DNA of 64,000 nucleotides from positions 899,377 to 963,376 of the forward strand of contig DASXUQ010000005.1 in NCBI GenBank assembly GCA_036504735.1. Direction: 5' to 3'. The stretch is from a bacterium. Its GTDB lineage: Bacteria > Electryoneota > RPQS01. Below the pieces are notes generated by a model. It made no database searches, had not been told where the DNA came from, and saw only the letters and a list, made by a program, of their open reading frames with translations. Below, one piece after another: positions 30,109 through 62,607 of this stretch. Made by a program: the position numbers and the translations under genes. Every line of letters begins with the position of its first letter. Position 1 is the stretch's first letter.

Positions 30109-30140
30109 CTCCTATGTCTGAAGGGCGGCGTCTCGCCGCG

Positions 30141-30176
30141 TTTCATCCTTCATCCTTCCGCCTTCATCCTTTTCTT
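30141..30176 (+). repeat. Purine/pyrimidine heptamer repeat element A
   Basis: Pyrimidine-rich on the plus strand: tandem TTCATCC units with a CCG variant in the middle. On the minus strand it reads AAGAAAAGG then GGATGAA units, starting exactly at the 3' end of RNase P helix P1. Its 30-nt core is shared with the copies at 32358, 32761 and 52616. Confidence 0.8.
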
Positions 30177-30667
30177 CGAGTTCGCCGGTAAGCCGAATTC
30201 TGTTCCCAAATCTCGCCGGATGGATCCATAGATCCGCCCGGCGGATCGGGCGACGATCATCTGTCTGGGGTGGCCATTACTGACCACCTCGATGCGACCT
30301 ACCCGCCGCCACTTGTGCCCCACGGGCCGCGAGGACTGACGGCTTACTTGGTCTTGCTCCGGACGGGGTTTACCCTGCCGTTCCTGTTGCCAGAAACGCG
30401 GTGCGCTCTTACCGCACCTTTTCACACTTACCGAAAGACGAAATTAGAAATGAAAAATTAGAAACGATAAACAGGAATGAACGTCTGCACGCATTCTCTT
30501 TTTAGTTTTTCATTTTTGATTTTTAATTTCGTCTTCCGGCGTTATTTTTTCTGTGGCACTTTCCGTTGCGTCGCCGCACCCGGCCGTTAGCCGGCGTCCT
30601 GCCCTATGGAGTTCGGACTTTCCTCGACGAAGATCTCTCCCCGCCGCGATCGCCTGGCGAACTCGAA
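30175..30667 (-). ncRNA. rnpB: RNase P RNA (type A, enlarged P12)
   Basis: Catalytic RNA of RNase P. Helix P1 is a perfect 12-bp pair between 30656-30667 and 30175-30186. The 5' conserved block GAGGAAAGTCCGAACTCC is at 30608-30625 (minus sense), followed by GGAAAGTGCCACAGAAA; the P10/11 block GGTGCGGTAAGAGCGCACC is at about 30400-30420 and the 3' block ACAGAATTCGGCTTACC at 30186-30203. The molecule is about 493 nt, well above the usual 350-400, because P12 (30431-30539) is a long AT-rich hairpin. No consensus promoter is visible in the 60 nt before it. Confidence 0.96.
30431..30539 (-). repeat. AT-rich hairpin element forming P12 of RNase P RNA
   Basis: The arms are 30431-30466 and 30499-30539, pairing first through AAGACGAAATTA/TAATTTCGTCTT and then through AAATGAAAA-type units. 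Composition differs sharply from the GC-rich RNA around it. GAAATTAGAAAT recurs in the hairpin at 62491-62607, so this looks like a dispersed element lodged in a tolerant helix. Confidence 0.75.
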
Positions 30668-30694
30668 ATCTACATTTGGCGGCCCCCGCCGCCA

Positions 30695-30733
30695 CTTATC
30701 CCTTATCCTTAAGCCCTTATCCCTTCTTCTTCA
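30695..30733 (+). repeat. Purine/pyrimidine heptamer repeat element H
   Basis: On the minus strand this begins at the TGA stop of the PP-loop gene: TGAAGAAGAAGG and then GGATAAG units with one GGCTTAA unit. Same architecture as the elements at 32761 and 47287 but with a different heptamer. Confidence 0.7.
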
Positions 30734-31939: not shown

Positions 31940-32359
31940 TTACGCCTTGTCCAGCGCCATATTCACCATCCGGTCCGCGTCCCTGTTCTCCTCGCGGGGA
32001 ACATGCTTGATGCGCAGCACAAACGGCACGTGGCGTTTGACAAGCTGCACCTGATCGTAGAGTTCCCGCAGCCGCGGTTCCTTGATCTTCCACTCGCCGA
32101 TCACCTGCATCACAATCAGCTTGCTGTCGCAGTGCACCCGCAGCGTCTTTGCGCCGGATTCCCGCAACGCGGGATTCTGTCCCACCACTTCCAGCAGCCG
32201 GATCAGCGCCCGGTACTCCGCTTCGTTGTTGGTGCCGTGCCCGATGCACCGCCCTTCTTCGAAGAGCAGCTTCCCGTCACTGTCTTTGACCACCACTCCA
32301 ATCGCCGCGGGCCCCGGATTCCCTCGGGCGCCGCCATCAATATGCGCTATTAAATCCAA
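31940..32359 (-). CDS. rnhA: Ribonuclease HI family protein
   Basis: 139 aa from TTG 32359. It hydrolyses RNA in RNA-DNA hybrids. The catalytic acids are visible: Asp8 in HIDGGARGNPGPA, Glu in NNEAEYRALI, Asp in VHCDSKLIVM and Asp in NRDADRMVN. It resembles the compact RNase HI-like group without the basic protrusion. The start codon is unusual: the whole 43-nt space to the preceding gene is a purine/pyrimidine repeat, the TTG lies at its edge and no Shine-Dalgarno site is present. About 130 nt without features separate it from the PP-loop gene. Confidence 0.88.
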   Translation of the reverse strand: MDLIAHIDGGARGNPGPAAIGVVVKDSDGKLLFEEGRCIGHGTNNEAEYRALIRLLEVVGQNPALRESGAKTLRVHCDSKLIVMQVIGEWKIKEPRLRELYDQVQLVKRHVPFVLRIKHVPREENRDADRMVNMALDKA

Positions 32360-32388
32360 GGATGAAGGCGGAAGGATGAAGGATGAAG
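32358..32388 (+). repeat. Purine/pyrimidine heptamer repeat element B
   Basis: Purine-rich on the plus strand: GGATGAA units with a GGCGGAA variant. It fills the gap between the four-helix-bundle pseudogene and rnhA and touches the rnhA TTG start. Orientation is opposite to copies A, C and D. Confidence 0.8.
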
Positions 32389-32402
32389 CAGCGTCCCGAA
32401 TA

Positions 32403-32767
32403 TCATGCGGATGCTTTCTGTTTGACTTTTTTGGTCACGGTCACGATAATCGCCGTTAGCTGGTCGGCCTCTTCCTGCAACGGTTTCAAATTCTTGGGAT
32501 TCACGATTGCAGTGTCTGCCAACAGTTCCATCCAGTAGGCGGTTTCGTCAAGTTCTTGCAATGCGCCTTCCATCTTGGAAATGAAATCCGCATTAGACTT
32601 TGCTGGCAAGCTTCGCGATATTGCGCGCCCATGGATGTTCCAGACCGCAGAATTTGCCGTCCCAACACATGCGCGGGATCGGTCTTAGGCAATGCCATGT
32701 ACAGACGGATGATGCGGTGGGCAAATTGCCGTGTGCGATCACGCAGACTCTGGATGTCTTCCTTCAT
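32403..32767 (-). pseudogene. Four-helix-bundle protein (TIGR02436/S23-like), frameshifted
   Basis: The N-terminal part (ATG 32767: RDRTRQFAHRIIRLYMALPK, QILRSGTSMGAQYREA) is in one frame and the rest (AKSNADFISKMEGALQELDE, TAYWMELLADTAI, down to 32403) in another. Joined, they match the family pattern SGTSxGAxxREA-xxAKSxADFxxK-LxExxETxYWxELL over about 120 aa. The shift is at about 32612-32618. Family members sometimes lie in rRNA intervening sequences, and their role is unknown. The start codon and its AAGG site are supplied by repeat element C. Sequencing error cannot be excluded. Confidence 0.75.
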
Positions 32768-32800
32768 CCTTCATCCTTCCGCCTTCAGCCTTTTCTTAAG
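32761..32800 (+). repeat. Purine/pyrimidine heptamer repeat element C
   Basis: On the minus strand it starts on the TAA stop of the zinc-ribbon gene (TTAAGAAAAGG), runs through GGCTGAA, GGCGGAA and GGATGAA units, and ends on the ATG start of the four-helix-bundle gene. The element thus supplies the stop codon surroundings of one gene and the start of the next. Confidence 0.8.
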
Positions 32801-52615: not shown

Positions 52616-52648
52616 CCCTTCATCCTTCATCCTTCCGCCTTCATCCTT
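52616..52648 (+). repeat. Purine/pyrimidine heptamer repeat element D
   Basis: Shares the 30-nt core of elements A, B and C. On the minus strand it begins on the TAA stop of the FAD-oxidase gene (TAAGGATGAAGGCGGAAGG). Confidence 0.8.
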
Positions 52649-53960
52649 ACTTGCACAGCGGCACCACCACGCCTGCGGGGTCGCACTTCTTCAGGAACTG
52701 CTCCCGGAGTGTGCGGGTGATGGACGTGCGGCCATTGCGGATATCGAAGGGAAGCAAGTTGCCCGCCGCGCAGCAGCCGCCCAGCGTGACCGCCACCTCG
52801 ATGATCTTCTTCAGCAGTTCTTCAGCGCGGACCGTTGTGCGCGGCTCGGCATCGGGCTGCAAGATCCACACGTTCATATGGCCCGCTTCCACCGTGCCCC
52901 ACAGCGCAACCGGGAAATTGAAATCGCGGCCCAGTTCCTTGACCGCCTCTTCGAGTTCCGGCACCGATGGCGCGGGGACGCGCAATCTCGCGGTCGTGCG
53001 CTCGGGGTACAGCCTCGCCGCCGTGCGTGAGAAGCGGAATAGATCCTGCCACAGCGCGTCAATCGCCAGATCATCGAAAAACGGCCTGCCGAACGCGCGC
53101 CAGGCATCCGGCCAGCGGATCTCATCCCGCCACTCCGCCGAAATCAGCACCGCCGCCTTGTCCGACACCGTGCCGTCATTGCCCTTGCGCAGCACATCCG
53201 TCGCCGCTTCGCCCCAGTAAATCACCGTCTCGGCCAGCGGCTCAAACTCCCGCAGCGCGGCCATCACCTCCACCGCCGCCCGCGCGGAAGGCAGTTCGAA
53301 CAGACCCGACGCGCGCGATTGCGGCGCGGGCTGCACATTCAATTCCAGCGCGGTAATCACCCCCGCGGTCCCGCGTGATCCGAACAGAAACCCCGACACA
53401 TCCAGCGCCGCCGCCGTGGCCACGGCAGGCCCCGTGCGGTGCACCACACCGTCCGTGCCCATCCACTCCACCGCGCTGATGTGCGACAGCACTCCGCCGT
53501 CCCGCCAGTTGCGCAGCCCTTCCCATCCCGTCGCCAGCATCTCCCCCACCGACGTCCGCGCGGGAACCGGCATCAGCGGCACCCAGCGCTGCCCGGCGCG
53601 CGTCAGGTCAATCGCCAAGGCCTCGAGCGGCAACCCGCCATTGACGCGCACACTGCTGCGCGACGCCGAGAATGCCGGCGTGCCCATCATGCGCGTGGTC
53701 AGCACAAGCGTCTGCCCTTTCAAGTCCCGCACCTCCACCGGGCGCAGCCCCGAAGCCACCGCCACCTTCATCTCTTTGGACGCGGCGTACTCGAATACCG
53801 CGCGCAATTCCTCATCATTGGCAGGCTCCACCACCACATCGGGCAAATCTTCTTTGCCAAGGCGGCCCTTCAAAAAGGTGAGGATTTCCTTTTGTCCCGT
53901 GTGCACGGTGCCGGTCTGTACGGCGTCGCGCAATTTGGCATAGCGGTCAAATAGTCGCAC
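52647..53960 (-). CDS. FAD-linked oxidase (PCMH-type, GlcE-like)
   Basis: 437 aa. FAD-binding half: LPDVVVEPANDEELRAVFEY, KEMKVAVASG, TSVGEMLATGWEGL (the pocket that normally reads GGxxATN), WMGTDGVVHRTG and GTAGVITALELNVQP. The C-terminal half is a substrate cap. It resembles the short glycolate-oxidase subunit E and related flavin oxidases. No iron-sulfur partner lies beside it. The substrate is unknown. The last codon touches repeat element D. Confidence 0.82.
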   Translation of the reverse strand: MRLFDRYAKLRDAVQTGTVHTGQKEILTFLKGRLGKEDLPDVVVEPANDEELRAVFEYAASKEMKVAVASGLRPVEVRDLKGQTLVLTTRMMGTPAFSASRSSVRVNGGLPLEALAIDLTRAGQRWVPLMPVPARTSVGEMLATGWEGLRNWRDGGVLSHISAVEWMGTDGVVHRTGPAVATAAALDVSGFLFGSRGTAGVITALELNVQPAPQSRASGLFELPSARAAVEVMAALREFEPLAETVIYWGEAATDVLRKGNDGTVSDKAAVLISAEWRDEIRWPDAWRAFGRPFFDDLAIDALWQDLFRFSRTAARLYPERTTARLRVPAPSVPELEEAVKELGRDFNFPVALWGTVEAGHMNVWILQPDAEPRTTVRAEELLKKIIEVAVTLGGCCAAGNLLPFDIRNGRTSITRTLREQFLKKCDPAGVVVPLCK

Positions 53961-62490: not shown

Positions 62491-62607
62491 GAAGAAAATT
62501 TGAAATTAGAAATTGGAAATAGGAAAGAAAGCAAAAATCAAAAAGCAAAGAGCAGAAACGCAGGGGACTCCTTTTCTATTTCACATTTCCTATTTTCGAT
62601 TTTCTTC
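62491..62607. repeat. AT-rich hairpin element at the rsmD/comEA junction
   Basis: Arms 62491-62527 (GAAGAAAATTTGAAATTAG onward) and 62571-62607 pair imperfectly over about 36 nt. The right arm encodes the last five residues and stop of comEA. Same word set (GAAATTAGAAAT, AAAAATCAAAAA) as the P12 hairpin in RNase P RNA. Confidence 0.75.

Follow-up and report, generated by a model that had tools for sequence, protein, structure and literature searches.

The rnpB locus of this bacterium raises the question of how a long AT-rich hairpin came to lie within the P12 helix of RNase P RNA, an essential structural RNA. The window, which is the whole stretch of 64,000 nucleotides that was analyzed, contains the gene at positions 30173 to 30665. 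A covariance-model search with RF00010 matches 30665-30173 on the minus strand with 302.7 bits and covers all 367 model positions (1-367). This end-to-end match and the conserved core identify a class A RNase P RNA gene and, as a correction to the first-pass annotation, place it on the minus strand. All conserved parts are present and the core is intact, while P12 holds about 90 bases outside the model. The insert, at 30431-30539 on the minus strand, is 109 nt long with 68% A+T and consists of inverted arrays of seven-base words of the AAATTAA, AAATCAA, and AAATGAA types. The first-pass annotation had already placed an AT-rich hairpin of 109 nt here, on which the model search, folding, and shuffled controls agree, supplemented by BLAST; the present analysis adds that the insert has a period of seven bases, that a cyanobacterial precedent has been published, and that there is a link to intervening-sequence-protein (IVP) elements. 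A second rnpB insertion, GC rich and located near the 3' end in the P19 region (about 30211-30260), contains an inner GGATC(C)ATAGATCC palindrome and is a single copy in 464 kb of the same genome.

The RNA of the P12 insert folds into one long hairpin of -37.9 kcal/mol (z score of -5.95), a value equaled by none of 200 shuffled sequences. Not one of 20,000 shuffles attains the period-7 signal, and the complementarity of the arms reaches 25, compared to a maximum of 16 in 5,000 shuffles. In the RNA, the purine-rich 5' arm (30492-30535, minus strand) pairs with the pyrimidine-rich 3' arm (30435-30479, minus strand). Arm alignment shows that the two arms of one hairpin are built of differing words whose order is mixed, and that neither arm exactly mirrors the other. 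Arms from the same copy pair barely better than arms from other copies, and the arms may therefore also change independently. The idea that perfect covariation of the arms in each copy would demonstrate copying of whole hairpins was consequently dropped, as a copy's own arms rank little above the others.

The words of the insert are dispersed in the genome. BLAST with the insert gives 21 matches at an E value of ≤0.001 in its own genome, two of which are the insert itself. The best outside copy (C17:229158-229196) shows 92% identity over 39 nt and takes in the nonrepeated start GAAGACG. The first-pass annotation had instead pointed to the word set of an AT-rich hairpin of seven-base words at 62491-62607, which is supported by sequence, periodicity, and arm alignment. 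The shared vocabulary stands (GAAATTA and GAAATAG words), but this hairpin is no close copy, is absent from the BLAST matches of the P12 insert, and is surpassed by much closer copies elsewhere, such as that on C17. In 464 kb of the genome, period 7 is the main medium period, with 5.6 loci per 100 kb, compared to at most 1.9 for other periods. Thirty-six of 47 heptad loci are intergenic, although coding DNA makes up 89%. A role of the hairpins as terminators was rejected: they show no excess between convergent genes, and most are found between tandem genes, a share close to that seen for the remaining spacers.

Further arrays surround rnpB. A CTTATCC-word array lies upstream of the gene at 30693-30727. 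A single-armed GGATGAA-word array adjoins its 3' end at 30140-30172 (G000:C5:929516-929548) and is identical in 33 of 33 nt to a P12 arm of the relative G002, so that a 33-nt array including the irregular word GGCGGAA is shared unchanged between genera. Another GGATGAA-word array, at 52619-52652, was found by repeat scan and cross-genome search. Together with the arrays at 32358-32387 and 32763-32793, these GGATGAA arrays are 30 to 35 nt long and contain GGCGGAA; the type is near-identical in several genera, has dozens of copies, and is often single armed.

Comparison with relatives covers G012 from the same order and ten other genomes of the same family, in one of which, G004, rnpB was not found. 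P12 is short in G005, G007, and G010. Six family genomes, including that of the window, contain word-repeat P12 hairpins with six different words: AAATTAA in the window's genome (G000), CTTGAAA in G001, GGATGAA in G002, GTATGAA in G003, GACTTGA in G006, and ATTAGAA in G008. All six are strong hairpins, with z scores of -4.4 to -10.8, and G002 and G008 differ in their words even though they belong to one genus. G009, as well as G012, shows a GC-rich hairpin in P12 instead of word repeats. A GC-rich GATTCCGGCAGGGACACAGTCCCTGCTCGGCGA-like hairpin occupies varied peripheral helices of the relatives' rnpB, namely, P3, P12, or the 3' region (L039 in G001, L015 in G002, L019 in G008, L020 in G009, and L036 in G012), and further copies are scattered through those stretches of the G001, G002, and G008 genomes that were read.

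The P12 word families are dispersed within their own genome, often without copies in others. The G006 insert has 24 matches in G006 itself and 14 in G001; no other genome has more than 1, and G002, G003, G007, G008, and G010 have none. The G002 insert has 53 matches in G002 and 44 in the window's genome, with none in the short-P12 genomes G007 and G010. Copies of the window's own insert are dispersed in its genome and almost lacking in short-P12 genomes. Six words in six genomes and the difference within one genus point to repeated filling of P12 by resident repeats. The two checks proposed in the first-pass annotation, P12 length in relatives and dispersed copies, thus bear out its proposal of a repeat element captured in rnpB. 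The pattern that it named as contrary to capture, the same AT-rich P12 across the whole phylum with no dispersed copies, is not what is found.

The likely kin of these hairpins contain a gene. At 32358-32793 on the minus strand, the window carries a decayed IVP element. Its inverted arms consist of GGATGAA words (32358-32387 and 32763-32793) and enclose a broken PF05635 (23S_rRNA_IVP) gene that is split over two frames (32403-32767, minus strand). On one side of the element lies an RNase H-like gene and on the other a zinc-ribbon gene, and the content of this spacer turns over among relatives as it does in P12: G002 (L245) has an intact IVP element with eight-base words, and G008 (L103) has an AT-rich hairpin without a gene, while the flanking genes align at 73 to 84%. 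PF05635 is present in 8 of 12 genomes searched and was not found in G005, G007, G011, and G012. Most PF05635 genes of the family lie between inverted arms, each of about four seven- or eight-base words. Among 129 PF05635 loci from more than 40 genomes of several phyla, 111 show inverted flanking arms at a P value of <0.01, compared to 9 of 300 random intervals, which were placed without regard to intergenic position. An arm score of at least 15 is reached by 102 of the 129 loci and by 2 of the 300 intervals. The best arm period is 7 in 94 loci and 8 in 17; the elements have a median span of about 486 bp and a median arm of 32 nt. With 109 nt, the P12 insert is too short for PF05635 and has no IVP gene, and its gene-bearing relatives lie elsewhere in the genome. 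No IVP gene was seen inside P12 in the rnpB loci examined.

Periodic P12 inserts are not confined to this family. A pattern search for a long P12 of 91 to 121 nt, with each species represented by a single genome, lists at least 80 loci; of those listed, 34 are strictly periodic (7, 8, or 14) and 10 are borderline. Among the matches listed, the strictly periodic ones belong to the Cyanobacteriota (16), Bacteroidota (9), Planctomycetota (7), Nitrospirota (1), and an unclassified bacterium (1; G008), the P12 of which recurs in survey locus L177 of the unclassified "bacterium STB_160." Borderline cases among the matches listed add the Bacillota, Armatimonadota, and Myxococcota. Such inserts hence occur in at least four named phyla, and the first-pass view of the arrangement as unusual holds only in part because of this recurrence. 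P12 words differ within Hymenobacter and within Nostoc, the same turnover as in the window's family. Among the matches listed, PF05635 is present in 41 of 44 genomes with periodic P12, compared to 19 of 36 with long nonperiodic P12 (Fisher P = 5e-5), an association confounded with phylum. PF05635 was not detected in three genomes with periodic or borderline P12 (L121, L130, and L163 in G065, G098, and G100, respectively). In these genomes, the partner may have disappeared or may have escaped detection because the genome is a draft; alternatively, the arrays may have arisen differently.

A more direct connection comes from comparing P12 with IVP arms in 45 genomes, for each of which only some PF05635 loci were read. 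P12 is best matched by the IVP arms of its own genome in 14 of 45 genomes, compared to 1 expected; a permutation test gives P = 2e-4, the lower limit for 5,000 permutations. These include Microcystis, Scytonema, Nostoc, Hymenobacter, Pirellulales, Nitrospirota, and G006, and several matches continue beyond the words into the inner boundary. In the window's genome, the match of P12 with its own AT-rich IVP element (L281) is modest, with a score of 17.5 and rank 2 of 45. About half of the 45 genomes show no clear correspondence between P12 and any of the IVP arms sampled.

These matches bear on a process without any capture, in which replication slippage and template switching would have lengthened a short P12 stem in situ and the same process would have made similar arrays elsewhere. 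In many bacteria, period-7 arrays outnumber all other medium-length repeats, and slippage has been proposed for them (PMC4679880); the variation of word order between the arms of one copy fits such a process. Slippage does not readily account for P12 words held in common with dispersed copies of the same genome, for a 33-nt array with the irregular GGCGGAA that is identical across genera, for matches extending past the words into element boundaries, or for a hairpin that is kept while its word is replaced. In-place expansion is accordingly regarded as unlikely.

Periodic P12 inserts also resemble the gene-bearing elements in polarity: a purine-rich 5' arm is found in 42 of 49 periodic P12s and in 76 of 100 IVP elements but in only 7 of 36 nonperiodic P12s. 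This biased polarity, like the retention of the hairpin in all six long-P12 family members, would also suit a selected function, for example, in protein binding or RNA stability, by which an extended P12 is kept while its sequence drifts. Close relatives with a minimal P12 speak against such a function, and the words match resident repeats instead of showing drift from a common ancestor, which makes this explanation quite improbable.

REP elements mobilized by RAYT form a further class of dispersed hairpins, one of which P12 might have received. The window's genome contains seven RAYT-type Y1-transposase genes. In G002 and G006, the P3 helix of rnpB holds REP-like hairpins, and rnpB has a RAYT gene as its neighbor in G002 and G009. 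Similar to the P12 insert, REP elements are short dispersed hairpins; they differ in having a GC-rich core and a CTAG foot and no seven-base periodicity. The P12 arms contain neither a GC-rich palindrome core nor a CTAG-type foot and do not belong to this class. None of 30 RAYT loci from the window's family and order shows period-7 or -8 arms, and G010 has three RAYT genes yet almost no heptads. For P12, a RAYT/REP source is therefore largely refuted and is considered highly improbable, despite the presence of the genes.

The REP hairpins themselves (CTAG with GCAACACGC..GCGTGTTGC) flank the RAYT-type gene adjoining rnpB in L245 of G002 (1230-1950) and in L020 of G009 (800-1560), and the same kind lies inside P3 in G002 and G006 (L016). 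In G009, the 5' end of rnpB occurs a second time, truncated and with a REP, in front of the RAYT gene, as if the cassette had entered P3 with duplication. Three RAYT genes of the window's genome (L232, L233, and L234) each lie amid their own distinct GC-rich repeat family. A literature search that covered few subscription journals found no publication joining REP or palindromic elements with rnpB.

Judged from sequence comparison, the P12 insert is probably a captured dispersed hairpin element, a gene-less relative of the IVP-carrying (IVS-type) elements known from 23S rRNA. The element would be a hairpin dispersed in the genome with arms of about four seven-base words each, the gene-bearing relatives of which would carry IVP/S23p (PF05635) between such arms. 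It would have landed in P12, which as a peripheral stem can take such an extension. Since the insert is self-complementary, it would only lengthen P12 and leave the catalytic core untouched. We infer that the element moves or has moved as a unit, that the IVP takes part in this, and that RNase P tolerates the insert. The IVP is not known to be a transposase.

A broader proposal is more tentative, with somewhat less than an even chance: short tandemly repeated repetitive (STRR) heptamers of cyanobacteria may form one class of mobile elements together with the 23S rRNA IVSs and the P12 hairpins found in several phyla. These elements would have inverted arms of word repeats, and some would carry an IVP gene while others lack one. 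Every lineage of the IVP would have a seven- or eight-base word of its own, and stems of structural RNAs (23S rRNA and P12 of RNase P) would be recurrent landing sites. This would connect the STRR heptamers with the word-repeat hairpins scattered between genes and with the 23S rRNA IVSs and their puzzling four-helix-bundle protein, suggest a source for the rnpB repeats known since 1997, and give the IVP a candidate partner sequence in its own word. By analogy, RNase III, the gene for which is present in the genome, could possibly cut the P12 hairpin and leave a two-piece RNase P RNA; a prediction is that RNase P RNA may, as 23S rRNA does, occur in pieces in some bacteria. The host range of the P12 words and their link to PF05635 elements appear to be new. 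On IVP and heptads in general, no publication was found apart from the Coxiella paper (PMC4990558), which notes heptamers; the search lay mostly outside subscription journals, where such a link could exist.

The direct precedent for words in P12 is the cyanobacterial STRR case. Vioque's 1997 article (NAR 25:3471) reportedly describes STRR heptamers that lengthen P12 in rnpB of heterocystous cyanobacteria, with unrelated words in close relatives and words dispersed in the genome. The STRR part of the RNase P RNA is said to be dispensable in vitro, and a link to IVP elements reportedly formed no part of that article. The window shares with STRRs the tandem, dispersed seven-base words in P12 and differs in its bacterial family, its AT-rich words, and its inverted arms. 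P12 has been described as sometimes dispensable, with reference to cyanobacteria (PMC2858038). The TAACTGA heptamers of the Beggiatoaceae are intergenic direct repeats of unknown function (PMC4679880). A P12 arm of Microcystis is likewise a TAACTGA array, whereas the Beggiatoaceae repeats are described neither as hairpins nor in rnpB.

A close structural parallel is the 23S rRNA IVS of Coxiella burnetii, which has 428 nt. Its terminal stem measures 28 bp, its loop holds an S23p gene preceded by tandem seven-base repeats, and RNase III excises it (PMC4990558). In both cases, a stem of an essential structural RNA hosts a hairpin with seven-base repeats, the distribution is sporadic, and terminal inverted arms form a long stem, of about 28 bp in the IVS, with a PF05635 gene in the full-length form. 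The elements described here share this plan, and the P12 insert is therefore read, with due caution, as a gene-less hairpin of the IVS type. The same type of hairpin brackets IVP genes, so that the insert looks like an RNase P counterpart of the rRNA inserts. It differs in lacking an S23p/IVP gene in its loop; gene-less 23S IVSs are known as well. As it lies in RNase P RNA instead of a peripheral stem of 23S rRNA, the P12 insert is best said to work like a 23S IVS, not to be one.
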